A stretch of 64,000 nucleotides of DNA, taken from NCBI GenBank assembly GCA_950295325.1, contig OX485803.1, positions 7,812,001-7,876,000 of the forward strand, in the 5' to 3' direction. A model generated the notes under the pieces. It had not been told where the DNA came from. It worked only from the letters and a program-made list of their open reading frames with translations, and ran no database searches. The DNA comes from Polytrichum commune. Its lineage: Eukaryota; Streptophyta; Polytrichopsida; Polytrichales; Polytrichaceae. Below, in pieces: positions 11,571 to 49,055 of this stretch (the first letter of the stretch is position 1; every line of letters begins with the position of its first letter). The position numbers and the translations under genes are program-made.

Positions 11571-11680
11571 CTGTAGTCACAACATTGACATATGTGACTA
11601 TGGATAGTCAAATACTGACATATGGGGTTAGGGTTTAGATGCACTAATTCCAACCACATTTTAGGAATACAAACACATAC

Positions 11681-12411: not shown

Positions 12412-12433
12412 CCCTAACCTAACCCTAACCCTC
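12412..12433 (+). repeat. Short interstitial telomere-type repeat (CCCTAAA family)
   Basis: The text reads CCCTAACCTAACCCTAACCC, close to the plant telomere unit. It is too short to be a telomere and lies inside the CACTA element. Confidence 0.6.
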
Positions 12434-12913: not shown

Positions 12914-13095
12914 TCAAGCGCTCTCAAGGGAGCAAGCTCTTAAGAGCTTGAGCCACGTGTGTGGGTTATTAGTTTTTAGTGAAGTTAATTAGTTAAGCTC
13001 TCTCTCTCAAGTGTTCTAAAGGGGGCTAGCTCTTAGAGCTTGAAAGCCACGTGTGTGGATTAGTTAGTCTTAGTAAGGTTAGGGAGTAATGTTAG
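12914..13095. repeat. Tandem duplication of about 90 bp
   Basis: Two adjacent diverged copies share GCTCT(C/T)AAG, AGCTCTTA(A)GAGCTTG and GCCACGTGTGTGG(G/A)TTA. The G-box core CACGTG in each copy could be regulatory, given the position between the divergent transposase genes; this is inference. Confidence 0.6.
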
Positions 13096-19400: not shown

Positions 19401-19840
19401 AATCCTCAACTACTCTTTGACTAATCCTAGTCCGACTAATGTGACTAAATATAGTGGAATGTTGTACCAAAGATGACTATGTTTTTACGGATCATACACA
19501 TTTATTATAACTGGAGTAATTATTGACATGACTAAGCATTTACTAGGTATAGTCAGTATATCGTGACTATCTTTAGTACAATGGGCACTACTTGTTTACT
19601 AATATTAGTCAACAGTGCATGACTATATGTAGTGAAGACAGACGATGTCCTAAGGGCGGTGCCAATCGAGGTCCCAAAAGGGCCTTGGGAACGCGCATAG
19701 GGAACGAAATGCCAACAGAATAAACCATAGTCAGCTTGTTGCAAGCGATTGGTCCGACCTGACAAGCATTTTACTGACTTTGCGACTACAGTAGTCCTAG
19801 TCAAGTACCTGGTTTTATATGATTTTCAGTCAAAAACCCC
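16475..19840. other. Right non-coding arm of the CACTA element
   Basis: No gene is recognised. At 17.04-17.18 kb there are irregular repeats of GTCTAGT..CAAGT. At 17.54-17.64 kb a segment (CTTGAACTTCAACCTGTTAT and onward) belongs to the dispersed repeat that is also the target of the 17.4-kb element. From 19.05 kb on, many TGACTA/TAGTCA motifs appear in both orientations, forming the sub-terminal repeat zone. Confidence 0.5.
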
Positions 19841-19869
19841 AGTCAAAAAAGCATGTTTTTGGCATAGTG
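19841..19869 (-). repeat. CACTA right terminal inverted repeat
   Basis: It ends in ...TTTTTGGCATAGTG and is followed by GAT (19870-19872), matching the left flank. Confidence 0.93.
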
Positions 19870-22952: not shown

Positions 22953-23039
22953 TCCATCATGCCTAGGTTTGCGAGGTCATTCTATGTTTAATTTATATGT
23001 AGCACATGTCAGAAGCTCACAGTGGGTTCATGTCGGCAG

Positions 23040-23825
23040 GCGCCTGCTGCTACACCCAGTCGAAGGTTCATTGTGGTGTTCGATTTAAACGGCATATTTT
23101 GCCACTGTTCCCGACGTAACCCGGGTATGGTGACTGTGCCCACTTGGATAACTTACGATAAAGCACCGGACAAACCTCCGGCCTTGGTAGGGCCCAAGGT
23201 TGTCCTACCTAGACTGGGATACAAGGTGTTTTGGTTGTGGATGTCCTCCATGTTCCATGTTTGCATATGGTCATCCATGAAAAAATCCACTGTAGACCTT
23301 GTGGTGGAGTATCTATTTGCCGGGGGCCCAAAACCCGCATTAGTACTTGGCCAAGAGGATTGCACCTTGTTCAAGGACATGTGGAACAATGTCGTCATGA
23401 ACCCTTTGAAGCCAGAAGCTCCTTTGTTTTTGAAAAGTTTACTCAACAAGTTTTGGTGGCCGCCTGTATCCTTCGATTCTGGAAGGATCACAACTGCACC
23501 CTCCAACACCATTCTAGTAGACGATTGCCCTTACAAATCTGTTTGCAATGCGGACGAGTGTGGTATCTTTCCCAACCCATTCACATCCAATCGGGTGCAA
23601 GACGCAGACATGACAAAGGTCCTCCTTCCTTACTTTCAATCATTGTTCTACTCACCAATGTCTGACGCACGCGACTTTGTGGTCAGCCGTAGATTTGGGC
23701 AACAACCTATACGTCATAACGATGCAGTCAAGGTGGCAGTTTTGAAATCCAACGGGCTCGAAGAAACCGACTCGGAAATTGTAGAAAAGTTGCAAATCGA
23801 TCGAATAGAAGTAGCAAAGAAATAA
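23040..23825 (+). CDS. FCP1/NIF-like HAD phosphatase domain, locus 1
   Basis: The exon opens after an acceptor (ATGTCGGCAG) with APAATPSRRFIVVF, then the nucleophile motif DLNGIF, the motif II region VCIWSSMKK and the motif IV acidic pair NTILVDDCPYKS. This order is that of HAD-superfamily NIF/FCP1 phosphatases, which dephosphorylate proteins such as the RNA polymerase II C-terminal domain. The general-acid position is Asn (DLN instead of DxD), so activity is doubtful; DLNG-type motifs may also be present in host-type plant members (from memory). Its closest relative in this window is the domain at 33,103-33,915. The reading frame ends at TAA 23,823-23,825. Exons at 23,885-26,677 may be alternative or downstream parts of the same transcript. 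Confidence 0.7.
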   Translation, partial: APAATPSRRFIVVFDLNGIFCHCSRRNPGMVTVPTWITYDKAPDKPPALVGPKVVLPRLGYKVFWLWMSSMFHVCIWSSMKKSTVDLVVEYLFAGGPKPALVLGQEDCTLFKDMWNNVVMNPLKPEAPLFLKSLLNKFWWPPVSFDSGRITTAPSNTILVDDCPYKSVCNADECGIFPNPFTSNRVQDADMTKVLLPYFQSLFYSPMSDARDFVVSRRFGQQPIRHNDAVKVAVLKSNGLEETDSEIVEKLQIDRIEVAKK

Positions 23826-31399: not shown

Positions 31400-31607
31400 G
31401 TTTTTCCAGCACATTTATGTACGTCCATATCAGTGCCCGGGAAGTCTTTGGGCATAGTTGGTCAAGGTCCTAGTGATTCTAAATCCAGCCGATTACATGT
31501 TGACATCTTCCGGTTCTGTGTTATTCTTTTGAGGTATATATCATAGATTCCTCTACAATGATCGCTAATTCTTTTAAAGTCTCCAACGTCAACCGGTTCA
31601 TCTGTAA
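31400..31607 (+). repeat. Dispersed repeat, left half, interrupted by the 17.4-kb element
   Basis: It shares GGGCATAGTTGGTCAAGG, TTACATGTTGACATC and TCAACCGGTTCATCTGTAA with copies at 20,370-20,612 and 55,195-55,780. The repeat resumes after 49,051 with GTAACTAACCACCGGTTCT. Confidence 0.75.
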
Positions 31608-31635
31608 AACACTATATTCGTTAAATTGAGACTTT
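31608..31635 (+). repeat. Left terminal inverted repeat of the 17.4-kb element
   Basis: 28 bases starting AACACTATATTCGTTAAATT, identical in inverse to 49024-49051, preceded by GTAA. Confidence 0.95.
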
Positions 31636-31739
31636 TTGGGCATTTTGAGACATTCACATAAATAAGAACAAGGATAAATGGAACACATATTGGAGAAAGT
31701 TGTAAGATGCGAACACTTTGTGTCGGGTATTTAGAACAA

Positions 31740-32040
31740 GAACCCCATTAATAACTCATATTTGGGATTGTTTAGGATGCGCAATCCAAACCTTAGGCCA
31801 AATTGAAGGGGAAATCTTAAAACATTCATATTATCGCACACAAAATATGAGATCTTGTATGAATATGTTTTAGGTAGGGCACTCCAAACCCTTAGACCAT
31901 ATTGAAGGGGAACTATGTGAACCAATATAATATAACATACAAAATATTCCAAACTCATATTTGTGATGGTTTAGTTAGGGCAATCCAAACCTTGGACCAT
32001 ATTGAAGGGGAAATCATGTGACACTTATATTATTGCAAAA
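31740..32040 (+). repeat. Three roughly 100-bp tandem units with degenerate palindromes
   Basis: Three diverged units share AACTCATATTTG(G/T)GAT, a quasi-palindrome GTTTAG....CAATCCAAAC (at 31770, 31867 and 31969), then ATTGAAGGGGAA. The palindrome resembles a worn form of the 22-mer found intact further inside. A related unit occurs at 41,565-41,615. Confidence 0.7.
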
Positions 32041-32155
32041 AAAACATACAAAGTATGGCATGTAAAATGCATAGCATGCTAACACCACACATACATTGGA
32101 TAGTGCGACCCAAAATGATGTTGCCTATGGCCCAAAACCCTACGCCTACTATGGC

Positions 32156-32963
32156 CTATCTAGCCTCGGAGATTGCCTCTTTTTCTTTTGCTTTTTTATC
32201 TTTTGCCTCTTTTTCTTTTGCCTCTTTTTCTTTTGCTGCGGCTTCTTTTGCTCGCATTGCTTCAACATTCCTGAAAATCTCCGCCCCGCGACTATAGCCA
32301 TTCTTGGGGTGACCGCCATCCATAAGACATTTTGGAGTCCGTCGGCCGCCCGAAATATACGTCGAAGAATTCGAATACGATGAAGTGGATTGTCTCGCAT
32401 TTCTGGTCATGGCGTACATACGCTCGAACTCGATGGACGCACTAGACCGCATAGGTTTACGGGTGGGAGCAACCTGCAACGCGTCATTGCAAGACCACAT
32501 GTGTTAGTTTAGGGAGGAAGACCCAAACGTGTCACACGATCATTTTTTAAGTGCAAAATGATTGTAATGCGCGGTTAACCATGTTTTAGAGAGGGGGGGG
32601 GGGGTTCACCTTGTCACCGGGGGCGTTCCCATCGGAGTTGGCAAGGAGGGGCAAGGCGTCCCGCAAAGGAATAGGAAGGGTTCCACTCTTCGTTGGCCGT
32701 GCGTCCATCCGCAGCCGCTGTTGAGGTGTAATACTTCCGCCGGGCCGAGAGGGGGATGTCCGGACGCATTTGCGATTTATGCCCTTGAGCGGCGACGGGG
32801 ACGGAGATCGCCGTAAGATTTGCTTGGGTGGGGGGCTATCGACGACGCCGGCGTCAATAGGCTCCTTGGAGTAGTCAATGGTTGACGCGGCGTCGTAAAC
32901 GGTCTCGTAGAAGAAGCTCCCCAACTCTGACTCGCTGACGATGTCAATCGAGGGCTCCAAACG
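32156..32963 (-). CDS. Two cargo exons: acidic/Pro-rich part and Lys/Glu coiled-coil end
   Basis: Inferred exons are 32963-32610 and 32473-32156, joined in phase 0 (K|VAPTRKP). The first codes RLEPSIDIVSESELGSFFYE, TVYDAASTIDYSKEPIDAG and a Ser/Pro/Arg linker. The second has RSSASIEFERMYAMTRN, then MRAKEAAAKEKEAKEKEAK, a typical single-alpha-helix or coiled-coil end. A good pyrimidine-rich acceptor precedes the first exon, so it is not the 5' end; it may continue the HAD exon just upstream, although that exon has its own stop at 33,103. The family is not recognised. It lies inside the 17.4-kb element and is transcribed with the other cargo. Confidence 0.5.
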
Positions 32964-33071
32964 CTCGCGCAAAAAAGGAAACGAAACAAAACCCAAAGGA
33001 AGAGGGTTTGCTAGAGCGCGTGAAAATCAAGATACATATGAAGCATATATTACACAAAGTGGGCGGGCGCA

Positions 33072-33094
33072 TACACACACACACACACACACAC
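33072..33094. repeat. (CA)n microsatellite
   Basis: About eleven CA dinucleotides lie between the HAD exon stop and the next exon. Confidence 0.9.
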
Positions 33095-33102
33095 GTGCTG
33101 CC

Positions 33103-33915
33103 TCAAATGAGCTTGTTAAATTTCGCGTGAGAGAACAACTCTCTGTACAAATGGTCTCGTGGATCCAAGTATCTCTCGCCTATCGGATTATTCCTAACAA
33201 AATTGTTTACAGGTAGTCCGCTTCCCCTGAGCGCCTGGAGGTATTTACTAAGGTCTAACAAAAATCGGTCCCGGACCTTCTCGACCGTCCACGTAGGGCA
33301 AACTATTAAGTTGGCCGTCGGGTTCAACATGTTCTTTGCGGCGCTGTCGTCCACCATGAGCGTGTTCTCCCGGGTGGGACGGACGTCGTAGGGGACACCT
33401 ATCAATGACGGACGCTGGTCCCAAAAAATGGGCTTCAAGACCTTGAGGTATTGGGGGGAAGCGGGGTTGTTTGGTTTTTTGACGACTTTGCCGTCCGGTG
33501 TGTACAATATTCTACAGGCTTCCTGTGCTAGGACCATGCAGGGGGGCTCGATGCCCTTGAAGATGAACTCCACGACTGCATTGGTGTTCTCGGCCTTCAT
33601 GGAGCTCCACACGACCACCCACCATCGTTGTTGGGCGATCTGGAGGAAGGTCCGAAGCCACGGGCGGAGGTGAACTAGCTTGCTCTTTATGAACGTGGGC
33701 GGCCCGTCGTAATTCGCGTCCTCGGGTTTGCAAAAGGCCACTGTGGGGGTCCTCGGGCAATGAACGCATTGGACGAGGACCCCGTTGAGGTCTAACACCA
33801 GGAACCGGGTCTTAGGCGGCAAAGGTGGAACGGGTAAAATGGGGGGGACCATCGCGCTACCTTCCTCGCTTCTTGGAGAGGCCCGGCGGGGAGCCGCGAC
33901 GCTATGCTCCGATCC
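33103..33915 (-). CDS. FCP1/NIF-like HAD phosphatase domain, transposon cargo (locus 2)
   Basis: The frame opens after an acceptor (CTCCACAG at 33,923-33,916) with GSEHSVAAPRRASPRSEEG; an ATG follows at 33,852. Motifs are TRFLVLDLNGVLVQC (nucleophile Asp, Asn in place of the acid/base Asp), VVVWSSMKAENT (motif II) and NTLMVDDSAAKNM (acidic pair). This is the same family and architecture as 23,040-23,825, including FIFKGIEPP versus YLFAGGPKP and a shared C-terminal FV...PI pattern. The loss of the second Asp suggests weak or no phosphatase activity, perhaps a binding role. It lies between the ParB/methyltransferase-like gene and the coiled-coil exons, all on the minus strand. Confidence 0.72.
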   Translation of the reverse strand, partial: GSEHSVAAPRRASPRSEEGSAMVPPILPVPPLPPKTRFLVLDLNGVLVQCVHCPRTPTVAFCKPEDANYDGPPTFIKSKLVHLRPWLRTFLQIAQQRWWVVVWSSMKAENTNAVVEFIFKGIEPPCMVLAQEACRILYTPDGKVVKKPNNPASPQYLKVLKPIFWDQRPSLIGVPYDVRPTRENTLMVDDSAAKNMLNPTANLIVCPTWTVEKVRDRFLLDLSKYLQALRGSGLPVNNFVRNNPIGERYLDPRDHLYRELFSHAKFNKLI

Positions 33916-34361
33916 CTGTGGAGACGAGCGACATAAGGCGGGGGAAGACTATGTCATGCTATGTCCACTTAAAGTGAATACAATATTTTCTGTGAAAAAT
34001 ACAAGAACCACTATGCATAGGCGGCCATACAAATGCAAGAGGGGGCAAGAGGAAAAAATATACATTTGAACACGAAAACAAACATAAGGGCACAAAATAA
34101 TAATTTTATTGTTTGCAATGCTCTATGTACAAAATGCCTAGGGGTGCGAAGCCGCGTTGAACGATCCGTTCAAACTATCCTAATTCAACATCTACAAAAT
34201 TGTGTGCACGCCTCCAAGTTCGAGTAAAATCGTGGGACGGGCGACGTTAGTGATCGTCGGGGGGGGGGGGCTGAAGGGATGCGAGAGCGGATGGACGGGG
34301 TGGGGGCAGTTCCTCCTAGCTAGGGGGGACACGACCACGGCAACAAGACAATAGACCAGGA

Positions 34362-34383
34362 GTTTGGGTCGAGCGACCCAAAC
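34362..34383. repeat. 22-bp palindrome, single copy 3' of the cargo genes
   Basis: Arms GTTTGGGTCG and CGACCCAAAC surround AG. It lies just 3' of the Pro-rich frame. Confidence 0.9.
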
Positions 34384-34393
34384 TGAGGAGGTC

Positions 34394-35050
34394 TCAGTGT
34401 ATTACCTCTCCCTGGTCATGCCTGGACGCCATGGAAGCCTCCACCGCCTCCGCTTGTCGTTCTCTCTTGCCACCGCCTTCTCCGACAATGTCAGCACCCC
34501 TCTCCTGCAAGCGCTCAGTGTCAGGACCTTCTCCTAACCCAACCTCCGCATGTGCATCATGCATAGGTTCATCGATTGGGATAGGAGTAGAGGTATCACC
34601 AGGCCCTCGAGGACCTTCAACATCAGGCATGGGTGTGTCTCTTTCAGACCCATGCTGGTCCATTGAAGACTGAGCGCTAACGGGGTTTGGGTCGGCCGAC
34701 CCAAACTCTCGTGCATCATGAGATTGGCCTTGTTGCACTGTAAGGGGGGGCGGGTTTGGGTCGGACGACCCAAACATGTGGGGGTCGTCCTGCTGATGGG
34801 GCGGGGGGATCACCAGGGGCGGCCGAAGTGGTGGGGGGGTCACAGGTCTAGAAGACCCGGGAAGGCGCCATATATTGGGGTCATCCGCTTGTTGAACCGG
34901 CGGATACGGACGGACGTGGGGGGGAACAATGTGCTGAAAGCTGAAGGAGGATTGCGGCACGGGCTGCGGAGGAATGTTCTGGGGAGGGAAGCCGGGGGGC
35001 AAGTGTGGAAATGAGCCCGGGGGAGCCACCACCAAACCCTGCGCCCACAT
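34394..35050 (-). CDS. Pro-rich C-terminal frame separated by one TGA from the upstream gene
   Basis: The frame is exactly in phase with the methyltransferase-like gene: its last codons are ATT TGA GGC ATG, so only a TGA at 35,054-35,056 separates 283 residues of exon 3 from 218 further open residues. The tail is disordered-looking (FPHLPPGFPPQNIPPQPVP, then acidic and Gly/Arg-rich). Two copies of the 22-bp palindrome lie inside it and are translated as FGSSDPNP and FGSADPNP. Three explanations fit: stop readthrough, a recent nonsense mutation, or an intron removing the stop (a GTGATT donor overlaps it). Confidence 0.5.
   Translation of the reverse strand: MWAQGLVVAPPGSFPHLPPGFPPQNIPPQPVPQSSFSFQHIVPPHVRPYPPVQQADDPNIWRLPGSSRPVTPPPLRPPLVIPPPHQQDDPHMFGSSDPNPPPLTVQQGQSHDAREFGSADPNPVSAQSSMDQHGSERDTPMPDVEGPRGPGDTSTPIPIDEPMHDAHAEVGLGEGPDTERLQERGADIVGEGGGKRERQAEAVEASMASRHDQGEVIH
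34685..34775. repeat. Two 22-bp palindromes inside coding sequence
   Basis: Copies at 34,685-34,706 (centre GC) and 34,754-34,775 (centre AC/GA type) keep both 10-base arms and are read through by the Pro-rich frame on the minus strand. Confidence 0.85.
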
Positions 35051-35053
35051 GCC

Positions 35054-35905
35054 TCAAATCACTTGCGTGATCAAGTCCGCACTAGTTGGAGGTTGCGCCA
35101 ATGCCCGCAGTCGCTCTTGCTCCAATAAGAGAGCCCTTAGCTCTGCCACTTCGTTCCGCACTGAGGGTTCTTCAGCAGCGGCCTTTTGCAAGCGGACGCG
35201 TTGTTCTTCGTCCCTTAACATCTTCTCGTTGGCTTCTTGCACGGTGAGGACTTCCGGCTTCACCTTCACTATCCCTGCGAAGGCACCTGGAGAGGAAGGG
35301 TCCGACCTGAGCTGTTTCGCGAGCTCCATGTCGTCCTCGTCTTCGCTGCTAATGGCAATTGTCTCCTCGATGGCATAGTCGCCATAGAGTTTCTTGCCTT
35401 TTAGTTTCCTCCTCTCCCTGAACGCGGCAGTCGCATCCCTGGAGTACATGTCGCGGGCATCATCAACCGTCAGGACGGGCACCAACTTACTTTGTGGAGT
35501 TGCTACCCGCATTGCCTTCTTTCGTTGAGGGGCTTCAGATTCCTGAGTGAAGCCTGTTCCCCCTTCTTCGACCTCGCCCTCCACTTTAGCCTCTTCTTCC
35601 TCCTCTTCCACCTCCTCATCCTCCTCCTCCTCCTCCCCCTCCTCGTCACGCGGTCGCCGAGAGGATGTGCCTGGATGCACTTGGACCAGAGGCTCTGGTA
35701 CAGCAACTGGAACCTTTATGGCCAATTCTTCAGGGTTGACACGCCTCGCCTTATCCAGCGGGCTCTCACCCCCTTCAACAGTCTCCTCGGCGTAGCTCCC
35801 AGGGATCCAGTCTAGTATATCCATCTTCTTCGCCAATGATTTTTGGGCCTTGTAGAATTGGATGTCATTAAGGTCTACATAGCTGTACACGTTCAGCCCC
35901 AGCAT
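35054..35905 (-). CDS. Exon 3: end of the methyltransferase-like fold and acidic tail
   Basis: The acceptor TTTCTGCAG precedes ATGCTGGGGCTGAACGTG. MLGLNVYSYVDLNDIQFYKA fits the strand/helix after motif I of a class I methyltransferase. EEEEEDEEVEEEEEEAKVEG is a strongly acidic stretch. The frame ends at TGA 35,054-35,056. Confidence 0.6.
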   Translation of the reverse strand: MLGLNVYSYVDLNDIQFYKAQKSLAKKMDILDWIPGSYAEETVEGGESPLDKARRVNPEELAIKVPVAVPEPLVQVHPGTSSRRPRDEEGEEEEEDEEVEEEEEEAKVEGEVEEGGTGFTQESEAPQRKKAMRVATPQSKLVPVLTVDDARDMYSRDATAAFRERRKLKGKKLYGDYAIEETIAISSEDEDDMELAKQLRSDPSSPGAFAGIVKVKPEVLTVQEANEKMLRDEEQRVRLQKAAAEEPSVRNEVAELRALLLEQERLRALAQPPTSADLITQVI

Positions 35906-38900
35906 CTGCAGAAATCCCACCAGATGTTATTATATGGCATAACATGTGATTCCACCGAAAAGGGGAAGTACATACAAGACCTAATATCAATTGCAAAGGT
36001 TATAGTTTGGGTCGAGCGACCCAAACTAGCATCAGTGTTAGTTTGGGTCGAGCGACCCAAACTAGCATCGGTGTTAGTTTGGGTCGCTCGACCCAAACTA
36101 GCATCGGTGTTAGTTTGGGTCGCTCGACCCAAACTATGAAAACAATTATGGTAAGGAGCTTACCATGCCAGCGAAGACGGGCTTGGTGCCGCCGAAGACG
36201 TTGAATATACAGTCCCCTCTTCTCGTCAAGGCCCTCATTATTCGGAGATAGAATTCCATCCGCAACTCGTCCGAATGGTATATGGCATATTTTGCCTCGT
36301 CGTAGAGGGACTTACTTGCGCCCAGGCCTTCTGGAACTTGGAATAGTTTCTGCATCCGGGTTATGGGGTGGTTCTCCACCTTCAGCAAGGTTGCTTTGAA
36401 CACAAAGTACAAGCACAACAAATTCATGACTTTGGTTTTCTTGTCCTTTAGTGTCGTGTACACCCCCTCCGCCGGTGCAGCAATGTAGTGAGACTTAGAC
36501 ACCGCATACTCAGGCTGCAATTTCCTCACAATTTCATACACCTGCTCTGCTCTCCTATCCTCTACTATCCACAGCCACATATCGACCTCCCTAAGCTTAG
36601 GGCTTGCATACTCCACGAACTTCGACATGAAGGGCTCGTAGAAGGGTGTACCCATTGTGCCCTCAAACGTACTCCCAGGAATGCTCCGGAAGTCTATTAT
36701 ACCAAAGGGGAACCGGTCCGCTGCTCTTACTCGTATTTCTTTCCTGGAATCAAGGCCGGGCCATCCCTGGATTTTAATAGGGTCAAAAGCGACAAGGTTG
36801 AAATGCGCATCCCCCTCAAAACTTACAATCTTCTTCTCCTTTATAAAGTTTGAGAAGGCACGCGTCGAGTGTTCTGGAAGAGCCAGGTTCTTCCCACCCT
36901 TCACCAGTTTTGACTTTAGGAAGTCTTCTCCTGCCTCCCTGATCAGAGCTGCCATGGATGCACTGGTGAAGTTGTATTCAGCCTTGAACGCTCTCCAGTT
37001 CACCTCGTTCACCTCGTCATCGACAAAAATGTTCTTTTCCGGGATTAGCTTCTGCAGCTCCTGGACGATCGTTGTTTTCTTCTTCCTATTCTCCGCCCAT
37101 TCCTTCATTGTGTAGCATGAAGGAACAAAGGATTTCGGCTTGGTGAAGACTATTTTGGGGTACACCCAAAATCTCTTAGGGGTCGGGTTGTTGTGCAAGA
37201 TGTGCATTGCCGCCTTCCCCATTTCCGCCTCCGAAAGACCCTGCAGACTTCTAAAGAATTCTCTCATGAGAGGCTTCATCGCCTTGAATCGAGAGGACGA
37301 GTTGAAGAGGTTGCATGTGTCAGGATCCATGAGATCCCCTGTCTCGTGTTTCTCAAACACTGTCTTCCACTTCTGCCAAACCATGTCGGATGATGTAATC
37401 AAGTAGATCTCTCCTCTTAGCTCATTGTACTTCTTTTGCTTGTGACTTGAATTGTCAATTGAGGAGAACTTGTTTATCATTTGGTATTTGAAAAGCTGCA
37501 CAAGAGCATAGAATGCGTGTTAATTCTCAATATGTTGTTTCCAAACAAAGAAGAAAAATGATGAACAACAAACTGCGTAGACAAACACAAACTAAAACAC
37601 AAGGTTTGGGTCGAGCGACCCAAACTGTATGAAGAAACACAAGGTTTGGGTCGAGCGACCCAAACTGTATGAAGAAACACAAGGTTTGGGTCGAGCGACC
37701 CAAACTGTATGAAGAAACGCAAAGTTTGGGTCGAGCGACCCAAACTGTATGAAGAAACGCAAAGTTTGGGTCGAGCGACCCAAACTGTATGAAGAAACCC
37801 AAAGTTTGGGTCGAGTGACCCAAACTCTGTTTGAGAAACAATGCTCACCTCCCACTTTGGATTCTTGTCTTTTGCATTCTCCCTTTCCTTGGGAGGCCGG
37901 CCGTAGAACTCCCACACATCCCGCGATGCCATAATGTTCCTAATCCAAGAAGCTTGATATGCCCGCTTCTTGTTATTCATGTTGAAATAGCGGGAGATAT
38001 CGCTCAGCCGGGTTTCGTCGTCCGACCACACGACCAATGCCTTCCATACCTTCAATTTTTCCTTTAGACCATTAGGATCATTCCACTCCGTCATCAGTTG
38101 AAGTTTCTTTGAAGCTTCAACACTGTGCTGACCGTCAATCAGCCAAAAATCGCCTTTCTCTATAGAAGGCCACATATCCGGTGTAGGCATTCTTTTGTGT
38201 CCCTGAGGCATGACAACAATAGTCTGCCTATCATGTTTAAACTGGTCGCTCACCATCTGGGCGATTAACCAATCAACATACGCATCTTCCTTTGCCCGAA
38301 CGCACTTCTCTGGTGGCGCTAGGTGGCATTGTGCGATGTTGACATCAAACTTGAATTCTCTGCCCATGAAAAAACAATGTAAACACTTGGTGTCGAAATT
38401 GTTGAGTATTTTCTGGATCTCCGATGGCTCCACTCCTTCCCCGGGCTTGGGCATACGTAGCTCCGGTGAAACAGGCTCATCTGTCATGGCAGATACTGAC
38501 TCTCTCGGCCTCTTAGATGGTGTCGTCTGCCGGCTTTGTGATGGCGTCGGTGTTTCACTATCAGCAGGAGTTGTCGTAGATGTTGTTCTCCTCGAGTCAG
38601 CTGGAACCGGTCGGGGCTTCCTCACTGTTTGAGGTCTTGACGACCCTGCGCCCTCTTCAGCAGTCGCCTTGCGCCTCACAGCTTGTTGAGATTTTGACTT
38701 GCTTTGCTGGGTCTTGTTTATTGCGTTGATTGCCTGCTTAAGTTTAGTGAACCTGGTTGCAACCTTCGTGTTTGAAATGATCGCATCTATGAAGATTGTA
38801 TCCGGTTTAACAATGTCTGGCTCAGCGCAGGATTCCTTCACGTATACCGGATCGAATGGCTCGGCTTGCTCATGCATGAACATGTGCACATTTTCCAGAG

Positions 38901-39177
38901 AAGAGTTTTCCAGGATGACGTCAACGTGCTCTCCTAGAGCATGAACTGATGCCACCTCCCATCCCGTCAAAGCATCCCATGTGTGTTGCTCCTCCGTGCC
39001 AACCTTCAAAACAAGGAGGATTTTGAATTGAACTGCCTTTACTACAAGAAAGGACCATGCAATTACAAGGTCTTCTTTTGCTACGTAGGATTGGTTTTTA
39101 GGAGTTTCGTGCTCCTGCCAGATCGCGTCTGGTGCCGGCTTGAACCATCGTTCTCCAGGTCTTTTCTTGGGGGGCAT
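35054..39177 (-). CDS. ParB/DGQHR-like plus degenerate DNA methyltransferase-like protein
   Basis: Inferred exons are 39177-37849 (443 aa), 37495-36164 (444 aa) and 35905-35054 (283 aa), all joined in phase 0 at clean GT-AG sites. The start ATG follows a TTGCAG acceptor, so a 5' UTR intron is likely. Residues about 330-430 read IVVMPQG, GDFWLIDGQHSVEASKKL, VWKALVVWSDDETR and ISRYFNMNNK, the layout of ParB/DGQHR-type domains. Exon 2 has FGIIDFRSIPG where beta-class amino-methyltransferases have DPPY, then WLWIVEDRRAEQVYEIVRKL. The exon 2/3 junction reads GDCIFNVFGGTKPVFAGM plus MLGLNVYSYVDLN, like motif I (DPFxGSGT). Key residues are altered, so catalysis is doubtful. Exon 3 adds an acidic Glu-rich stretch. 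ParB-methyltransferase fusions are known in phages and bacterial mobile elements; here it is eukaryotic transposon cargo. Confidence 0.6.
36005..36134. repeat. Array of four 22-bp palindromes in intron 2
   Basis: Copies are at 36005, 36041, 36077 and 36113, a 36-bp period with spacer TAGCATC(A/G)GTGTTA. The first two have centre AG and the last two CT. They sit about 30 bases from the GTAAGC donor of exon 2. Confidence 0.92.
36164..37495 (-). CDS. Exon 2: methyltransferase-like core
   Basis: The acceptor is CTTGTGCAG at 37,504-37,496. It opens LFKYQMINKFSSIDNSSHKQ, holds a conserved-looking WVYPKIVFTKPKSFV, ends GDCIFNVFGGTKPVFAGM, and has donor GTAAGC at 36,163. Confidence 0.65.
37604..37825. 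repeat. Array of six 22-bp palindromes in intron 1
   Basis: There is an exact 40-bp period from 37604 to 37804 with spacer TGTATGAAGAAAC(A/G)CAA(G/A). All have centre AG except the last, which has one arm change (GAGTGACC). The array fills most of the intron between the ParB-like and methyltransferase-like exons. Confidence 0.93.
37849..39177 (-). CDS. Exon 1: N-terminal region and ParB/DGQHR-like domain
   Basis: MPPKKRPGERWFKPAP opens the exon; a basic Ser/Thr/Pro linker (about residues 150-240) separates an unknown N-terminal domain from the ParB-like part. The donor is GTGAGC after AAG TGG GAG. In DGQHSVEAS the Arg common in DGQHR motifs is Ser. Confidence 0.65.
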
Positions 39178-39201
39178 CTGCAAGTAGAAATACATATGTT
39201 A

Positions 39202-39957
39202 GTTTTGGTCGGGCGACCCAAACTCTTTCAAATCATATAGGCTTATGTCTGGGTTTAGTAACATTTATATATGGGGTTACTTTTCACAGGTTTGGGTTGA
39301 ACGACCCAAACCTGTGCCTACAATGGCTAATGAATAATATATTATTTGGCTACGAAAACCAATCTTTAAGTTCATGGATACAACAATCATCACGAGCTAC
39401 TGTTCTAGTTGTGGGTCATTTCATTATTGCTTGGGTGTTTGAGTTGTTGTTTATAAGTGTAAGTATTGTTTGTAAGCAGTAAAAATTTACGCAAAGTTTG
39501 GGTCGTTCGACCCAAACTTTGTAGCGGTATGGAATGATCGGCTATGGCCTTAGATCATACCCAAGATGATGATTACCTAAATTATGAATTACCATTTCAT
39601 GCGCTGTTTGGGTCGAACGACCCAAACTCTGCAGATGGATTGGGTCGAGTGACCCAAAGCATGTGCTAGTTTGGGTCGAGCGACCCAAACTCTGCAGATG
39701 GATTGGGTCGATAGGGTTAGATATTCACCCAAGATGATGATTAAATTAATTATAAATAAACATTTGATGCGGAGTTTGGCTAAACCCTAGACCCAAACAA
39801 TGCTTATGGTTTGGGTCGAGCGACCCAAACTCTGCAGATGGATTGGCGCCCACGACCCAGAGCATCTGCTAGTTTGGGTCGAACGACCCAAACCATCTTT
39901 AGAGTTTGGGTCGAACGATCCAAACCAGCTGGAGAGTTTGGGTCGCTCTACCCAAAC
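39202..39957. repeat. Loose cluster of about nine 22-bp palindromes in the 5' region
   Basis: Copies are at 39202 (degenerate), 39290, 39496, 39606, 39669, 39809, 39872, 39904 and 39936, plus half-copies. Centres vary (GG, AA, TT, AG, CT). They lie upstream of the ATG of the minus-strand gene, probably in a 5' UTR intron or promoter. Confidence 0.85.
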
Positions 39958-40589
39958 CAGCTGCAGAGTTTAGTGTTTTAGGGTTTCAAACTGAAGTTTG
40001 GGTCGTCTCTCGAAACACTTTTGATTCCAGAGACCTTTATAATGTGTTTACGCAGCATATACAATGCTTATGCATTGTAGATGCTGCGAAACTCTAAAGA
40101 AATTGACACACATAAAGAAGTTGAAGAAATCACCTTGCTTTGCAAACTACACAACAAGCTGCTGTTGGAAGCAGTTCTAACAAGCTAGTCTTGGAAGCTG
40201 ATTCTAGAAAGGATTGGATATCAGAAAACTAAGAACGCCTCACAAACATTCACTCTGAATTGAAGAAGCTTTCACAAACATTCACTCTGAATTAAACAAT
40301 CCCTCACAAACATTCACTCTGAATGTAACAAGTGTTTACAAACATGAACAAAGAAGCTATCTGAAGGCCACACATGCATCCTGATTTTCGAACAATCATT
40401 CTAATTCCGAAATCACTCTACACTCACACATGAATGTTTCTAAGACCAGGAGGAACTGACACAACCACTTTGAAACAACACTCACACTCCAAAACAACAA
40501 AGACGTTCTGAAATGGCTAAAATGTATAGACTTTAATACAAAAACAAACCCTAAACTCATACTACACTCAGAACTCGGTCAATGCGCAC

Positions 40590-40830
40590 TCAATGAACAA
40601 CAAAATAGATCAAAAGAAGAGGAGGAGTGAAAGAGAGAATGAGATAATGATGAAGAGGGAAGGAGAGAGGGAATGCGAGTTCGACAAGGAGAGAGAGAAT
40701 GCAAGGGAGGAGGCGGCGCTTTCAAGAGCGGCGGCGCCTCCAGAAAGTATGAGGAACGTACAAAGGAGGAGGAGCTTGGAGCGGAGGAGAGAGAAGGAGA
40801 AAGTGCGGAGGGGAGAGTGAAAGGGGGAAG
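40590..40830. promoter_or_regulatory. Purine-rich (GA) tract, possible CT-rich leader of the minus-strand gene
   Basis: On the minus strand this is a pyrimidine-rich TCTCTCCCTT tract such as often marks plant 5' UTRs. The GC content rises upstream to 40,975. Start site and promoter are inferred from position only; peptide frames on both strands are low complexity. Confidence 0.3.
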
Positions 40831-41656
40831 GTCACTCAAGGGCGGGACCCATTCGGGCCGGCGCCTTTCGTGTCCGTTCGGCTCATGGCCGCCACGTGTC
40901 ACGGGGCGCTCCATGGCCCAAACGAATACACAATCTGAGCCATTGGAGAGCCCCAAGCCCATCGACGGTCGATAGGCCTCGCAGGTGGGTATCCTTTAGC
41001 CACCTATCCCATACCATCCTTGAGGATACTAAAAAACCTTTATAGCCTAAGGTTTTTAATTTAATGGTCCCCCGATGGATTTGCTAATATCAAATAATGA
41101 AACTGTATTGGTTTTGTAATTTTAGTAATCTACACATATGCATGAATCGAGAATGATAGATACTAGACTAAGAGGAGTATTTAATAATTATATTGCAATC
41201 CTCGTAGGCAATTACATAATGGAATAATATAACTATGGTAACCATTTACACAATGAATGGTTTCGAGTTATATATTGTAATTATCTATGAAGGTTGTTGG
41301 TAAAGGACAATGCTATAGCCTACGATGGATCCGTTAACACATACCATTGAACTAAATCTAATTATACAAGTTTATGTAGTGTCATTCATTATAATATGGA
41401 ATTATGCAATATTAAGTGTTGACAACTTAATATCATTGTTGTTTGCGAAAAGCAACAAAGATGTTGTTTGATTTATAGCATGATGGAACATTAACATACT
41501 TATTTACAAGTTTACATATTTATGAGATACAAATATATTGAAGCGGGTGTTTTTGCTGAAGAACCCAATTAAGAACTCATATGAAGATGGTTTAGGTAGG
41601 ACGACCCAAACATTAGACAATGTTGTTGTTGTTCATATATTTAGTTGAGACAAGAT

Positions 41657-41684
41657 AAAGTCTACAAATATTGAATATAGTGAT
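41657..41684 (-). repeat. Internal sequence resembling the element's right terminus
   Basis: AAAGTCTACAAATATTGAAT followed by ATAGTGAT matches the right terminal repeat at most positions. The preceding bases (TTGAGACAAGATAAAGTCT) also parallel the right end (TTGAGACTAGAGAAAGTCT). It suggests a nested or composite origin. Confidence 0.55.
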
Positions 41685-42446
41685 AGTAAATGAGAGAAGC
41701 ACCATGTATACAAATATGAAGCTATCAAATACTAATATGTGGAGTTCAACATTATATGAAGCCATTTAAGCAATCACTTTGTTGTTGGATGATCCCTCCA
41801 CATATATTAAACAACATATCTTATTAGGAAATGAGGCACAAATTACAGTAGATGGTGTTCTATATGGAAGCCACACGGGTAGGTCACTCTAAGGCATTTT
41901 TGTGCACCACGTGCGGCTCAGGGTTTTTTGTTTTGGGGCTATTTACCTTCAAGGGTTGAATTAAAGCCTCCCTATAATTACTTGAATTTCAAAAATGGCC
42001 CATTTGTTTGCACCCTTCCATTACTTATATTGTCCAAGTCACTGCAATTTTTTGTACTCTATATTCCTTTTAAGTAATAAAAGCTAATCTACTTCATGTT
42101 AAGGGAAACCATGGAAACAAAGAAGGGTGCAAACAATAATATCATTGCAAACAAAGTTATGAAGAAAACACATAGGAGACCATAGCAAACATTATACTAA
42201 ACATACCTTCTAGGAACCTTATCTTCAGCCCCTATATTAATTTTACAAAAAAATAATGGCCCACATTTTATGTCCATCTAACTTACTTATAATGGGATTG
42301 TCTACATTTAATGGCCCCTTCATTATTTGGAATTCCTTTATAATTTTTATTTCAAATGATTTCAATCCTCTCTATATTATGCCGCACGTCGTTTTTAAAA
42401 TGCACTAAGTGACCTACCCGTGGGAAGCAACCCTGAACAACTACGA

Positions 42447-42479
42447 GGGTGTAGGGTGTAGGGTTTAGGGTTTAGGGTA
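42447..42479 (+). repeat. Short interstitial TTTAGGG run
   Basis: GTGTAGGGTGTAGGG is followed by TTTAGGGTTTAGGG, the plant telomere unit. Confidence 0.75.
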
Positions 42480-43591
42480 TATAAATGTGTCTTGTTGCAC
42501 TCGAAGCCATAAATGAATGGCGCATAGGTCAAATGAGGGGGCCAAGTCGCTTGTGGTTCTAAAAACAAATGTATATAGATATCACAATAGTCTAATTCAT
42601 GAACATGAACGTTGGTTACATTTCATGTTATGTTTGTTATGTATGTTATGTTACGTCGTAGATGCGTTCATATTTAGTGTATAAATCTCTAAATATCTTA
42701 TTTAGTGTAGTGACACTAGAACACACCAACATGTATTTAAGGACATGTTCTGCTCAACTTGCATTGAATAGATACAACTATATATGTTTAGATTTTTCAT
42801 CAAACATTTGTTAAAACAAATAAAGTTGATTACATTTTTTTTGGTAAGCCAAATCAATAAAAACTATAGGTACAAAACACAACTACAATAAGTATGATAT
42901 TTAGTGTTTGATACACTAAATACAAGTGAATACACAATATATCAATAACCATATGAAAGTAATAAACATTAAATATAAGCTATAGTAATATGTGGCATTG
43001 ACATGTTTGAATTTAGTGTTAGTAAGGATGTGAAAAGAAGAAATATACGTGAGAGTAGAAGGTAGCAACACATTTACTTCTAACACTAACTGTCATAGGA
43101 TTGAAAATTAATGTTGAGCATGTAAGGGTGGTAACCATAGTCCGCCAAGAGCCTAAGGCTAGTGTAAATGCAGCCTACAAAATTTGTGACTTAGCCTATA
43201 AAATTTTGAAAGTGTAGGACAAAGAGCCTATGGACAATTTTAAAACATAGGATATCAACCTATGTGGTAAAAAACATGTAGGAAATTTTGCCTACAAAGT
43301 TTTTAAAAGAGCGGATTTTAGCCATTCATCCTTCTTCAAATTGGGAAATTAGTTGGCCTAAGTACATATCTTTAGGCTAATACTCGGGGCTCTTGAGTGG
43401 CACATAGGCGGATATCAATAATAGCCCTGACTCCCTCCCCGTCGATCTTTACAAATACCACAGCCCAAGCCCCATCACCGCATAGAGGTTGAATCAGAAG
43501 ATGGTGAGGACTTTCACCCTTAAACTCATTTGAATTTTAGCAACCTTTCATAACTTATAATCAACTCTTTAAAAAGGAGTTGGTTAATCCT

Positions 43592-43660
43592 TGGCCTTCA
43601 AACGTGGTGAAGGGCTTAGCCAGGTTCAATTCCTGCCAAGGATACCACTTAGTACTCAAA
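43592..43660 (+). mobile_element. Possible tRNA-like SINE head
   Basis: GGTTCAATTCC (B-box-like) at 43,623-43,633 lies downstream of TGGCCTTCAAACGTGG. The A box is poor and no borders are seen, so this is weak. Confidence 0.25.
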
Positions 43661-44129
43661 TTTTGAATTTAAAGCCTACAACATTAAAAGATATGAAGGA
43701 TTTTAACCTACTAAAAATTAGTTTTAAAGGCAATTGGCAGGTAACTTAAAAACTCAAAAGGTTTTCAACTTACAAAAATTTGATATTGTAGGATGCAACC
43801 TATGCCATGAGGGAAATAGCCTATGCCCTTTTAAAGAGGTAGGCAATTAACCTCAATAACTTCAAAAACTTTTCGGACACTGGTGGTAACAACACTACAT
43901 ATAATCAAATCCACACATCATATTTTGTGTAGTTATTTAATAGCGGAATTAGGAGGTTAGTTGTCCAAGGTCATTTGATGGTTGGCGCCACGAAGAGGCA
44001 AGCTAAATATGGATGCTCTATTACCAACAAGAAGCGGGAAATTCTGTCAGAAGGTTTGAACTTAGGTTTAGGGTTTACGTTCGGGCGGGAAAGGGATCCA
44101 AAGAGGAAGGCCAAGGCGGAGGCGGGTAG

Positions 44130-44136
44130 TATAAAG
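44130..44136 (+). promoter_or_regulatory. TATA-box candidate for the DUF7869-like gene
   Basis: TATAAAG lies in GGCGGGTAGTATAAAGTACC, a GC-rich upstream context, about 1.3 kb before the start codon. The leader would then include the 17-copy palindrome array, likely within a 5' UTR intron ending at the GTGTGTAG acceptor before 45,450. Confidence 0.45.
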
Positions 44137-44350
44137 TACCAAACCCCCCAAACTTTGCTCCTTTTTTCTCATCTCTCCATTCTGAAATGGTTGCAAGCTC
44201 TCTCAAGTAGTGGTGGAGTGCAAGGTTCGTGTATGCATCCGTTGATGAGTAGCTAATTACAACAGCCATGCACGGCCTGAATTCTTCCAATTAGTATCCA
44301 CGTAGCTGAATATGGAAGATTACCGCAATTTAAGGCATAATTTGCGGAAT

Positions 44351-45261
44351 GTTTGGGTCGCTCGACCCAAACCCACCCCCATAGTGAGGTTTGGGTCGAG
44401 CGACCCAAACCCACCCCCATAGTGAGGTTTGGGTCGAGCGACCCAAACCCACCCCTATCACGGGCTGGGCCTGGATTAGCAAGCCCATCCTATCACGAGG
44501 TTTGGGTCGCTCGACCCAAACCCACCCCCTCTCACGGGTTGGGCCTGGATTAGCAGGCCCATCCTGTAACGAGGTTTGGGTCGCTCGACCCAAACACACC
44601 TCCATTGTGAGGTTTGGGTCGAGCGACCCAAACCCACCCCTGTCACGGGTTGGGCCTGGATTAGCAGGCCCATCCTGTCACGAGGTTTGGGTCGCTCGAC
44701 CCAAACCCACCTCCATTATGAGGTTTGGGTCGCTCGACCCAAACCCACCTCCATTATGAGGTTTGGGTCGAGCGACCCAAACCCACCGCTATCACGCGCT
44801 GGGCCTGGATTGCCAGGCCCATCCTGTCATGAGGTTTGGGTCGCACGACCCAAACACACCTCCATTGTGAGGTTTGGGGCGAGCGACCCAAACCCACCCC
44901 TGTCAGGGGTTGGGCCTGGATTAGCAGGCCCATCCTGTCACGAGGTTTGGGTCGAGCGACCCAAACCCACCCCTATCAAGGGCTGGGTCTGGATTACCAG
45001 GCCCATCCTGTCACGAGGTTTGGGTCGAGCAACCCAAACCCACCCCTATCAAGGGCTGGGTCTGGATTACCAGGCCCATCCTGTCACGAGGTTTGGGTCG
45101 CTCGACCCAAACACACCTCCATTGTGAGGTTTGGGTCGAGCGACCCAAACCCACCTCCATTGTGAGGTTTGGGTCGAGCGACCCAAACCCACCCCTGTCA
45201 CGGGTTGGGCCTGGATTAGCAGGCCCATCCTATCACGAGGTTTGGGTTGCTCGACCCAAAC
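44351..45261. repeat. Array of seventeen 22-bp palindromes upstream of the DUF7869-like gene
   Basis: Starts are 44351, 44389, 44427, 44500, 44574, 44612, 44685, 44723, 44761, 44834, 44872, 44945, 45018, 45091, 45129, 45167 and 45240. Two spacers alternate: about 16 bases (CCACC..CCATTGTGAG type) giving 38-bp steps, and about 51 bases giving 73-bp steps. The long spacer contains a second inverted repeat, GGGCCTG....CAGGCCC. Centres are mostly AG or CT. Peptide frames with WVARPKP or GRSTQT units are only translations of the repeat. Confidence 0.95.
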
Positions 45262-45453
45262 CCACCCTCATGCACACAATGGGGATGTGCATAGACGGAT
45301 CCTGAATAAACTGTTGTGCGCTCCATCTTTTTGGAACCCATCGATATAATATTCATACAACATGTGTTATGATAAGGTTTCTGTGTTTTTCTATTGGACC
45401 CTATAGCTTTTGTCAATTCTTTACAAGGTTCCATGTTCATGTGTGTAGGCAAA

Positions 45454-46951
45454 ATGGATGGGTATACTGGAAGAGGGTATTCGTCTGGAGAAGACATGGC
45501 CACTTGGCCATCTGCATCTGAGGAAGAGCTAGACATTGTCGGGGAGGCTACTATGGATGAGAGTTCAGATGAAGAGCATTTCGATATACCTTCGCGTTCC
45601 GTACCGGACTGTCCCATTCCAGAGTGTGCCGTGCTTTCAAGAGCTTCATGGGTGAATTTGGATGTGTTACTTCTTAATGACAATGGGGTTGTTGTGGCGG
45701 AGGGTATCTGTCGTAACACCCATCCACAAGATTGCATTGATCAAAATCCGCTTGGCACCGAGGACGTTGGGATTGTCATATTGGAGTCACTCGTTCCTTC
45801 TGAGGTGGATCCCACTCATAGGTTCTCCCTCCGCAGGTGGCCATTGAGGAATGTCACGACTGATGGAGTTAGCTTGCGTGAACATGAGCAACGACACATG
45901 CAACTCGAAAAGGAAATGCAATCAAACATGCGGCCACGCAAGGGTCAAAGAAAGTACGATACTGTGGCACGTCCTTCTCCATCTGCAACTGATTGTAAAC
46001 GTCAAAGGCTGCTTGGGGAGGAGTCCATAAGAGAAGTTGTCACAAAGGATTGTTGTGTGCATTGTTGTTGCCAATTGTTTCCAAGGGATAAATTGAAGGC
46101 CATCCGTGAAGAAATGTGGCTTGGAGATTTTCGTCTAAGATCCACAAAAAAACTTGATGTCCATAGGGCAATACATGTGAATGGGACGGGTCGCAAGGTA
46201 ATCACCATTGAAAGCATAGACGTGTGTTGTAAGGCATGGTACACCATTTACGGTGTGTCGAAGGCGGACTTCTATAGACAAGCTGCTTATGCCAAGGAAG
46301 GCCGCCGGTCCCGTCACCATGGGAACGTGGGTTTAAAGAAACCTAGGGAAGCAACAAGGCAAGCAACGGCAACTCTAGCAACCATCATTGTCCCCCTTGC
46401 TGATGCAATGCCGCACAAAACACGCACACTCACAACTGGTGAAAAGGTTGTGGAGAAAGTTCTTCCCACAGGCACAAAATGGAAAGACATATTGTTGGAC
46501 GTTAATGCAGTTGGCGAGAAGATTGGGTTGGAGCCAATTTCATTGTCAAAATTAAGTGCAATCAAGAAACAAAACTTTAGCGAATACATTACAAAAAGAC
46601 GAGGGGACAAATTTGCCAGGTGCTCTAATTGCGAGAAGTTGAAGCGCCTCCGGGATGCACACACGATGGGTACCGAGTCATATGCAGCGCATCAATTGAA
46701 CTATTTCAAGCACGTAAACATGCAAGAGGCACACCGTAATGATTACTACACAAATAGAGCTTTGTCCATCTCCAGGCCCTTGGAGGTTCTTACGGTCATC
46801 CATGACAAAATGGACCATGCCAAAACAGCCTCCCCATGTTTTGCAAATCGAATCAAGGCCACGGATGGGTTTTTTAAGTTGCCTGTATCGGTTACAGGTG
46901 AACTTCGAAACAATGTCATGACATACCCTAAATGTTGTGGTTTTTTATTCC
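45454..46951 (+). CDS. DUF7869-like gene, exon 1
   Basis: It codes about 499 residues up to KCCGFLFR and carries the zinc-type cysteines and the first acidic motif (VIHDKMDHAKTA). The donor choice (C|GTGATG) is the one that preserves the frame; an alternative donor (G|GTTTTT) 15 bases upstream also works. Confidence 0.7.
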
Positions 46952-48518
46952 GTGATGTACTGGAGAACATGGATTCCTTCATAATGGTTTATTCATACAT
47001 AGATGCTAATCACGTTGGGTTGGCATTGCAGGAATGATTGCACATGGACACGGTGATGTCAAGTTTGCTCATTATGCTCTTGATTTGTATCCAGCGGATT
47101 CAAACCACACGATAGGATCATTTGCAAGGCTTTTACGTGATTTAGAGAAACCACCAGCCTATTCTTCAGGATTGTTATTTGAGAACACGGGTTCAACACC
47201 TTTATATGAAGCGGTGTTGGATGGAAAAGATGTATGCTTGCATTCGTTGCCCGAGCCACCCAATGAACCCGTGATTGCCAAGAAGTTGCCTCCAACTTTG
47301 CGTGTCCAATTGGACAATTGTGCCAAGGACAATAAAAGCAGATATGTATTTGCATATTGGTCGTTGTTGGTTGCGAAAGGCATTTTCAAGGAGGTTTTTG
47401 TGTCCTTCCTATTGGTAGGCCACACGCACGATGATATTGATGCATCTTTTGGGCGGTGGAGCATGAAGTTGCGGGAGGAGGATTTTCCTACAATCCCATT
47501 ATTGATGAAGTCGTACATGGATTTGGAGAACGTTCCCGTCATCCCCCATATGATTGAGGAGGTGCCAGACTTCAAGGCATTTATAGAACCTTATATTCGA
47601 AGTGGAGCTCACCGATTGATCGGGCATACGAAGGCACAACAATTCCGGTTCTACATGCGTGACGATGGTGTCCCGGCCATGCAATACAAGTTGTTGTGCA
47701 CGACACAAGACTGGAGCCCGCCGGAGGGTCTTCTTGTGTGGCGCGTGGATGCGGATGGGAAGACCATGTTACCGGATGGGGAGCCTAGCCCTTGTAAGCC
47801 AATAGCCATGAAGAATTTGGAGGATATTTTGAAAGGTATATCAGGCTTCATACAATATTGGGAGAGTTTGAAGATAGCGGATGTTGGCGGATCATGTTGG
47901 CATCGTTATGGGAGTTGGATACATTATTGGACACGTGTTCGTGCCGCCTTGGTAGACCTCCACCAAGATAGCCCTCATACTTTGAGGCATGGATTTTGGC
48001 CACAAACACGAGTCGATGTACAAGCTTCAGAGGCTAGTCTTTTGGGAAATGGAGAGGTTCGAGAGGAGTTTGATGTGGACGACCATTACGTGGGGCCTGC
48101 TAGTAGTCGTCCGCCACCATCTTTCCGCATTGCAGTGGATTGTCATGAAGGATATATGCTCATTTTGCGTCCTGGAGACGAGACATATGTGAAGCCAGTG
48201 TGGGTGGCAAGAGCTTTGTCCAAACCCAATTTTGTAACTTCCAGCCCTCATTTTCGACAAATACAAGTGGAGTACTACCGACCGACGGCAAGGAATGAAG
48301 ATGTGATTCGGCATTATACAGGCTGGGATACAAACCCTAACTTTCGGTGGAAGGTGGATTCTGAGCACGGTCCATCTTGGGTAGATACAGATTCCATATT
48401 CATAGCATATAAACCACGGAAAAATCATAGTGGATCAGTGTCCATCCCTCAAAAGTACATAACTTTTGCAAAAGACAACCTTGCTCGGATCGCAGAAGAA
48501 GCAACCCACGTTGAATGA
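45454..48518 (+). CDS. DUF7869-like protein, putative DDE transposase (994 aa)
   Basis: Inferred exons are 45454-46951 and 47032-48518. An 80-bp GT-AG intron restores the frame (FLFR|MIAHGHGDVK). The ATG follows a likely UTR acceptor. The N-terminal third is acidic (MDESSDEEHFD), then come zinc-type cysteines (CCVHCCCQLF; CCKAWYTIYGVS; RCSNCEKLKRL). The core has acidic clusters VIHDKMDHAK, VQLDNCAKDNKSRY and VGHTHDDIDASFGRW, spaced like a DDE/RNase H-fold catalytic triad, with ALDLYPADSNHTIGSF between. I recognise this as the DUF7869 family pattern, seen as multi-copy genes in several eukaryotes. It sits inside perfect inverted repeats with a 4-bp duplication, so a transposase role is the best inference. 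There is no stop within the exons, so it may be intact. Confidence 0.78.
47032..48518 (+). CDS. DUF7869-like gene, exon 2
   Basis: The acceptor TTGGCATTGCAG precedes GAATGATTGCACATGG. It codes the second and third acidic motifs and a C-terminal region ending PQKYITFAKDNLARIAEEAT, with its own stop at 48,518. Confidence 0.8.
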
Positions 48519-49023
48519 GAAGTTGGTAGGATTGTGTTAGCATGATTATAGTGTAAACAGTAATTCTACGAACATATATTACTCATATGTGTGCTCTTCA
48601 AAATTGGGGCAGAGTTTGGGTAGAACTTACGAATACTATATTGTTTTGGAGTTGGATGAATATCCATTTACTATATTTCAATACAAATGTGAAGTTCATT
48701 TTTTTATTAAGTTTGGGACTAAATTGTCCATTGAAAAAATATGCATTTATTACATGCACTTTGTATGTTGCAATGTCTATATTCTATGGAGCATGCTAAT
48801 AATAGAAATCATTATATATATATATTTGGGTGAAACTTGTTTGGAGTGCTCTACCCAATGTGTTTTTGTTGATGAAATTGGTGTTGAGTGCTCTACCATA
48901 TGTGCTTATGTCCGCACATCATAGGTGTGGGATATTAGAACATTTAATATATTTGAGATTGTTGACAATATAGTTTTAGGCATCTTCATGTTGTTTGATC
49001 CATATATTAATTTGAGACTAGAG
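48519..49023. other. 3' non-coding arm of the 17.4-kb element
   Basis: AT-rich. Worn palindrome-like TTTGGGTGAAAC....GTGCTCTACCCA occurs near 48,826. No gene. Confidence 0.5.
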
Positions 49024-49051
49024 AAAGTCTCAATTTAACGAATATAGTGTT
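49024..49051 (-). repeat. Right terminal inverted repeat of the 17.4-kb element
   Basis: 28 bases ending AACGAATATAGTGTT, followed by GTAA (49052-49055). Confidence 0.95.
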
Positions 49052-49055
49052 GTAA

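Follow-up and report, generated by a model that had tools for sequence, protein, structure and literature searches.

Why does a large moss transposon carry arrays of one short palindrome beside a gene for a ParB-like protein, and to which class of transposons does it belong? The element lies in a 64-kb stretch of the Polytrichum commune genome (contig OX485803.1, positions 7,812,001 to 7,876,000), which we call the window and whose numbering is used throughout. It spans positions 31608–49051 (17,444 bp) and is a DNA transposon, with ends perfectly inverted over 28 bp and GTAA on both flanks. We favor, with moderate confidence, the explanation that it is a large autonomous cut-and-paste transposon encoding its own ParB-like regulator, which would act at the palindromes. 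An initial annotation of the window had proposed these termini and flanks, and the two ends are indeed perfectly complementary:

31604–31607, no strand: left copy of the target site duplication, GTAA (read from the sequence)
31608–31635, plus strand: left terminal inverted repeat, AACACTATATTCGTTAAATTGAGACTTT (sequence reading, window search and genome-wide count)
49024–49051, minus strand: right terminal inverted repeat (sequence reading and window search)
49052–49055, no strand: right copy of the target site duplication, GTAA (read from the sequence)

A 23-bp portion of the terminus, with up to three mismatches, occurs at two places in the window, both of them the element ends, and in none of 100 shuffles. 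The genome searched comprises 407.8 Mb in 64 contigs. Seven of these are large (42–78 Mb); a haploid number of 7 would, we presume, fit Polytrichaceae mosses. The 28-bp terminus, again with up to three mismatches, was found 1,029 times in forward and 1,031 times in reverse orientation, and the reversed pattern, as a control, gave 0 and 0. Copies were collected using a 3.3-kb probe from the right-hand (DUF7869) gene region (45300–48600). Among 1,238 candidates, 40 matches were scored: 29 of full length at 98–100%, 2 partial at 100% and 9 at 96%. Ends were fetched for 21 of the 29 full-length matches (c1–c21). Both ends lie inside the fetched stretches in 13 copies, and 11 of these carry a perfect 4-bp duplication (GTAA, AATT, ATAG, ACAT, AGTA, AAAT, TCAC, ATGT, TAGT, ATAG and CAAG). 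The flanks of c7 and c8 are swapped, CAAG/ACTA and ACTA/CAAG; these copies lie on the same contig, C4, near 5.136 Mb and 4.510 Mb, about 626 kb apart and in opposite orientations. Because two oppositely oriented copies have exchanged duplications, the swap points to recombination between them that inverted about 626 kb, or else to an assembly error. In the other eight copies the fetched stretch contains no left end. It is missing from the 20-kb stretches of c3 and c9, which have no matches to the element's first 5.3 kb and 0.7 kb, respectively; the stretch of c10 ends just before a perfect terminus found in the genome-wide count; and for c12–c15 and c21 the left end was sought in 1.1 kb, the perfect end of c12 being located outside it.

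The terminus listing for contig C1 contains 90 perfect ends, including 34 adjacent converging pairs. Nineteen pairs are spaced by 16.0–18.5 kb, two by about 14.5 kb, one by 4.8 kb and 12 by more than 20 kb. Ends were read for 10 of these 12 long pairs (26.6–44.1 kb apart): nine have a perfect 4-bp duplication and the tenth reads AGTA/ACTA. Thus, most of the long pairs represent one insertion each, be it a larger element or one that later received nested insertions. Taken together, the two samples give 23 insertions read at each end, 20 of them with a perfect 4-bp duplication. Chance alone would produce such a match in these flanks with a probability of 0.0049 per locus; therefore the duplications are not accidental. 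These results support the annotated single mobile element with defined ends, present in many copies. The genome-wide search for paired ends that the annotation suggested yielded the duplications just described, and its concern that no other copy might share both ends is answered by the 13 copies. When the 20-kb stretches of ten copies were compared to the window copy, seven (c2, c4–c8 and c11) aligned from one end to the other apart from internal gaps, for the most part at 97–99.7%. Where both ends lie in the stretches, the element is 16,639–17,444 bp long. The same gene set, a further point the annotation proposed to check, recurs in other copies, complete or in part.

The probable transposase is encoded on the plus strand. 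Its gene, annotated from the outset as DUF7869-like, matches the Pfam family and consists of two exons:

45433–46897, plus strand: first exon of the DUF7869 protein (probable transposase; putative start codon)
46898–47031, plus strand: putative GT-AG intron, 134 bp (from the sequence; relatives read VSVTG-MIAHGHGD unbroken)
47032–48518, plus strand: second exon, with the match to Pfam PF25273 at about 47277–47702 (E 8.8e-41)

A frameshift in this gene was considered and rejected: the GT-AG intron joins the two overlapping open reading frames, and the relatives are continuous at the junction, so no frameshift is needed. The predicted fold of the protein resembles DDE transposases, a weak match, and invariant aspartates are present, among them a putative catalytic triad. 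We strongly infer a DDD-type transposase with an RNase H-like core, the invariant aspartates and possibly a BAH-like C-terminal domain. The modelled C-terminal part (residues ~693–808) is similar to MazF and to BAH (chromatin reader) domains, and a BAH-like part could steer insertion. Named close relatives of the gene come from the mosses Ceratodon and Physcomitrium. Viral contigs searched with the DUF7869 protein, the end sequence and the ParB-like protein contained no relative of any of them, and PDB sequence searches with alignments of both proteins gave no useful match. No paper found by our literature search, which left most subscription papers outside, names DUF7869. The gene lies within defined ends at 14 loci, the 13 copies with both ends read and a 44-kb relative described below; therefore DUF7869, a Pfam family of unknown function, can now be tested as a transposase family.

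On the minus strand, the initial annotation had placed separate genes for a ParB/methyltransferase-like protein and an HAD phosphatase-like protein. The coding regions are present but appear to be exons of a single gene with phase-0 introns between them:

37849–39177, minus strand: probable first exon, a PH-like domain followed by a ParB CTPase-type domain (putative start codon)
36164–37495, minus strand: probable second exon, a conserved domain of unknown fold (splice sites; 49 relatives; ratio of nonsynonymous to synonymous divergence, dN/dS, 0.09)
34406–35905, minus strand: probable third exon, coil/low-complexity (splice sites)
33103–33915, minus strand: NIF (HAD-type phosphatase-like) domain, probably the last exon (Pfam NIF, 7.5e-16; start placed from a relative's acceptor)

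Spliced together, as we infer from the sequence, they would encode a protein of about 1,650 residues with the order PH-ParB-unknown-coil-NIF. The phosphatase-like label agrees with the NIF match, the only one above the Pfam cut-off in the minus-strand open reading frames. The ParB label stands on predicted structure, as the model of the first-exon product matches a ParB CTPase-type fold. The methyltransferase label found no family above the cut-off in Pfam and none in NCBIfam or PHROGs, with the fold model of the second exon too poor to use. The conserved ParB-like motif reads GQHS, where classical ParB has GERR, and the second half of the model is poor. No recognised DNA-binding domain was found, and a Pfam scan of ten element open reading frames detected no ParA-like protein. 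In the NIF domain the motif is DLNG; in NIF/HAD-type proteins it is usually DxD. A second NIF-like gene in the window, outside the element at 22992–23825, likewise has DLNG; imperfect inverted repeats flank it at 22429 and 26963, and no clear duplication accompanies them. Each of the ten other copies compared contains the ParB-like gene or at least a part of it. Stops interrupt minus-strand exons in several copies; the third exon of the window copy has one, which is not present in 8 of the 10 others.

Where are the palindromes? The 22-bp sequence GTTTGGGTCGnnCGACCCAAAC, with up to three mismatches, has 41 matches in the window, all inside the element, and none in shuffles:

34362–34775, no strand: three palindromes, of which the third intron holds one and the third exon two (pattern search)
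36005–36134, no strand: four palindromes in the second intron, 36-bp period (pattern search, splice sites)
37604–37825, no strand: six palindromes in the first intron, 40-bp period (pattern search, splice sites)
39202–39957, no strand: ten palindromes upstream of the ParB-like gene (pattern search)
41590–41611, no strand: a single palindrome with two mismatches (pattern search)
44351–45261, no strand: 17 palindromes immediately upstream of the DUF7869 gene (pattern search)

The three introns thus hold 11, the third exon 2, the region upstream of the ParB-like gene 10 and that upstream of the transposase gene 17, with one standing alone. Coding spans contain 2 of 31 perfect palindromes, against 14.3 expected. 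The number of perfect palindromes per 20-kb stretch varies from 18 to 35 among c1–c11. Genome-wide there are 9,231 (control, 0). Among the first 100 of these, 61 fall between the perfect ends of two pairs, 16 have a single perfect end within 16 kb and 23 have none nearby; placement was judged against perfect ends alone, to the exclusion of ends with mismatches, which leaves the 23 unexplained. Palindrome clusters with no perfect element end nearby are found on C1 at 438279–478028 and 2154319–2159887. The arrays can also be recognised in proteins from other sources, as palindrome peptides produced by read-through: in 17 of 37 ParB relatives and 13 of 49 second-exon relatives, and in none of the DUF7869 relatives (120 listed of 197), where the array is outside the reading frame and mostly unreadable. 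Overall, peptides from intron read-through occur in all three frames. Motif switching of the kind known in VANDALs was looked for in distant relatives; inspection by eye suggests another repeated motif in the next intron of two of five second-exon relatives (37–39% identity), a signal too weak to use.

A diverged relative allows the sites and the gene to be compared across lineages. It spans 44 kb (C1:71171587-71215640, duplication CAAT) and is the one long end pair whose interior was read, from 10 kb inwards of its left end onwards. One block is homologous to the window element at 77–88% DNA identity. To its left are at least 13 kb of extra DNA, which could be a nested element, with a second open reading frame and tandem repeats of ~75 bp and multiples. 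This second frame (L069:4703-5455) has no Pfam match; its DGNHR stretch looks ParB-like by eye and it adjoins the ~75-bp arrays, so that frame and arrays are possibly another protein-and-array pair. The palindrome arms are kept in the relative (1.85 bits versus 1.87), whereas the favored center is AG/CT in the window lineage (31 of 42) and GT/AC in the relative (21 of 28). The 22-bp unit is conserved between the two lineages while spacers and periods differ. With the sites masked, two of four paired non-coding regions show no match, one matches over 30 bp at an exon edge and one over 239 bp at 68%. The ParB-like gene has a low dN/dS, 0.09 in the second exon, with synonymous divergence (dS) up to 1.7, calculated by the pairwise Nei-Gojobori method against one relative, over spans that may include a few intron codons and with dS above 1 in three segments. 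Synonymous divergence is uneven between segments of the element (dS 0.29–1.7), and for this reason lineages may have exchanged modules.

Could the palindromes instead be binding sites of the DUF7869 transposase, leaving the ParB-like gene to do something else? In Spm, the TnpA sites are bound by the transposon's own protein, and the largest array here is directly upstream of the DUF7869 gene. However, the outermost 2.7 kb on the left and 3.7 kb on the right contain no palindromes, and the palindrome peptides adjoin ParB and second-exon coding parts while being absent from the 120 listed DUF7869 relatives, with the array there mostly unreadable. We regard this alternative as unlikely. The minus-strand genes might also be captured host passengers and the palindromes an ordinary minisatellite, since plant transposons often capture gene pieces, as Pack-MULEs do in passages of PMC6431247; the second NIF-like gene in the window and the stops in minus-strand exons of several copies would fit. 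The low dN/dS seen across two lineages whose dS reaches 1.7, the occurrence of the ParB-like gene in the other ten copies and a 22-bp unit conserved amid changing spacers and periods make this explanation very improbable.

A true ParB/parS-like system would unite the ParB CTPase-type fold and the palindromic arrays of the same element: CTP-gated clamps would be loaded at the palindromic sites and spread from there over the element, either to bring distant ends into synapsis or to segregate the element once excised. The absence of a ParA-like protein among the ten frames scanned and of a recognised DNA-binding domain, and the motif GQHS in place of GERR, leave such a system with little likelihood in our view. 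A related reading, also unlikely, is that a eukaryotic transposon has taken up a ParB/parS-type nucleation system: the ParB-like protein would load at the arrays and spread over 17–44 kb, keeping the element active or joining its ends, with lineages diverging at the palindrome center, AG/CT versus GT/AC.

The favored explanation, an autonomous transposon with its own ParB-like regulator, divides into parts of unequal certainty. That the DUF7869 enzyme would act on the 28-bp ends by cut-and-paste is strongly supported by the anatomy of the element. Less certainly, the PH-ParB-unknown-coil-NIF protein would recognise the 22-bp palindromes through its ParB-like part; by way of these sites, which lie in the introns and upstream of each gene, it may control or un-silence the element. 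A literature search on ParB with transposons, eukaryotes, palindromes or moss, with subscription papers mostly outside it, gave nothing relevant by title and abstract start, and a term search of a review of giant eukaryotic transposons found no mention of ParB or Sola. What appears new is that a Sola-like transposon carries its own accessory system; a ParB-like protein paired with conserved palindrome arrays would let one ask how long transposons escape silencing.

How does the element compare with known transposons? The annotation had remarked that a 4-bp duplication fits Sola, and the 20 of 23 insertions agree. Passages of PMC10741241 and PMC9033089 describe Sola as having 4-bp duplications, inverted ends and a DDD-type transposase, with sizes that can exceed 15 kb, and report it from Physcomitrella; its terminal inverted repeats are 11–1124 bp long (PMC10741241). 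The element resembles Sola (Sola1) in its 4-bp duplication, its inverted ends (28 bp, within that range) and its large size, and its DUF7869 gene has relatives in Physcomitrium and Ceratodon; the transposase would be a further likeness if its predicted DDD-type core is right. Membership in Sola fits by duplication length, size and moss occurrence, a placement by published description. The element differs in that a literature search on Sola turned up no ParB-like gene or palindrome arrays. CACTA (En/Spm) elements also have inverted ends with CACTA and include large multi-gene forms, 16–20 kb in Chondrus in passages of PMC6431247. They have a 3-bp duplication and CACTA at the very end, whereas the termini here begin AACACTA, with the 4-bp duplication outside it in 20 of 23 insertions. 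Because of the duplication length, and because Pfam found no Transposase_21 (tnp2) domain in the ten element frames, we rejected CACTA membership. The same domain was found in a neighboring CACTA (En/Spm) element of 12.2 kb (window 7646–19869; GAT/GAT duplication, tnp2 transposase).

The likeness to bacterial ParB/parS consists of the predicted ParB CTPase-type fold and a repeated palindromic site; no ParA was seen, the motif is unusual, and the setting is a eukaryotic transposon in which the fold is joined to PH-like and NIF-like parts. A further comparison is with the VANC anti-silencing proteins of VANDAL transposons, which un-silence their own elements. For VANDAL21 of Arabidopsis, passages of PMC5735166 place the motifs in the introns of two genes, VANC21 and VANB21, and upstream of a third, VANA21. 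Both elements have an element-encoded protein and dense arrays of a short motif, in introns and upstream, that vary in copy number (PMC5735166). In VANDAL21 the motif has 9 bases and a single orientation, and binding to it was demonstrated (PMC5735166); this element has a 22-bp palindrome as a putative site. By a Pfam scan of the minus-strand open reading frames, done without VANC sequence comparison, no relationship was found between VANC and the ParB-like protein. Because the palindromes resemble the VANC21 case in their location, in being gained and lost in tandem and in coming with a dedicated gene of the element, we suggest the ParB-like protein as a regulator acting at them. If this is true, the protein and its conserved arrays would mean that sequence-specific self-regulation arose independently in this plant transposon.
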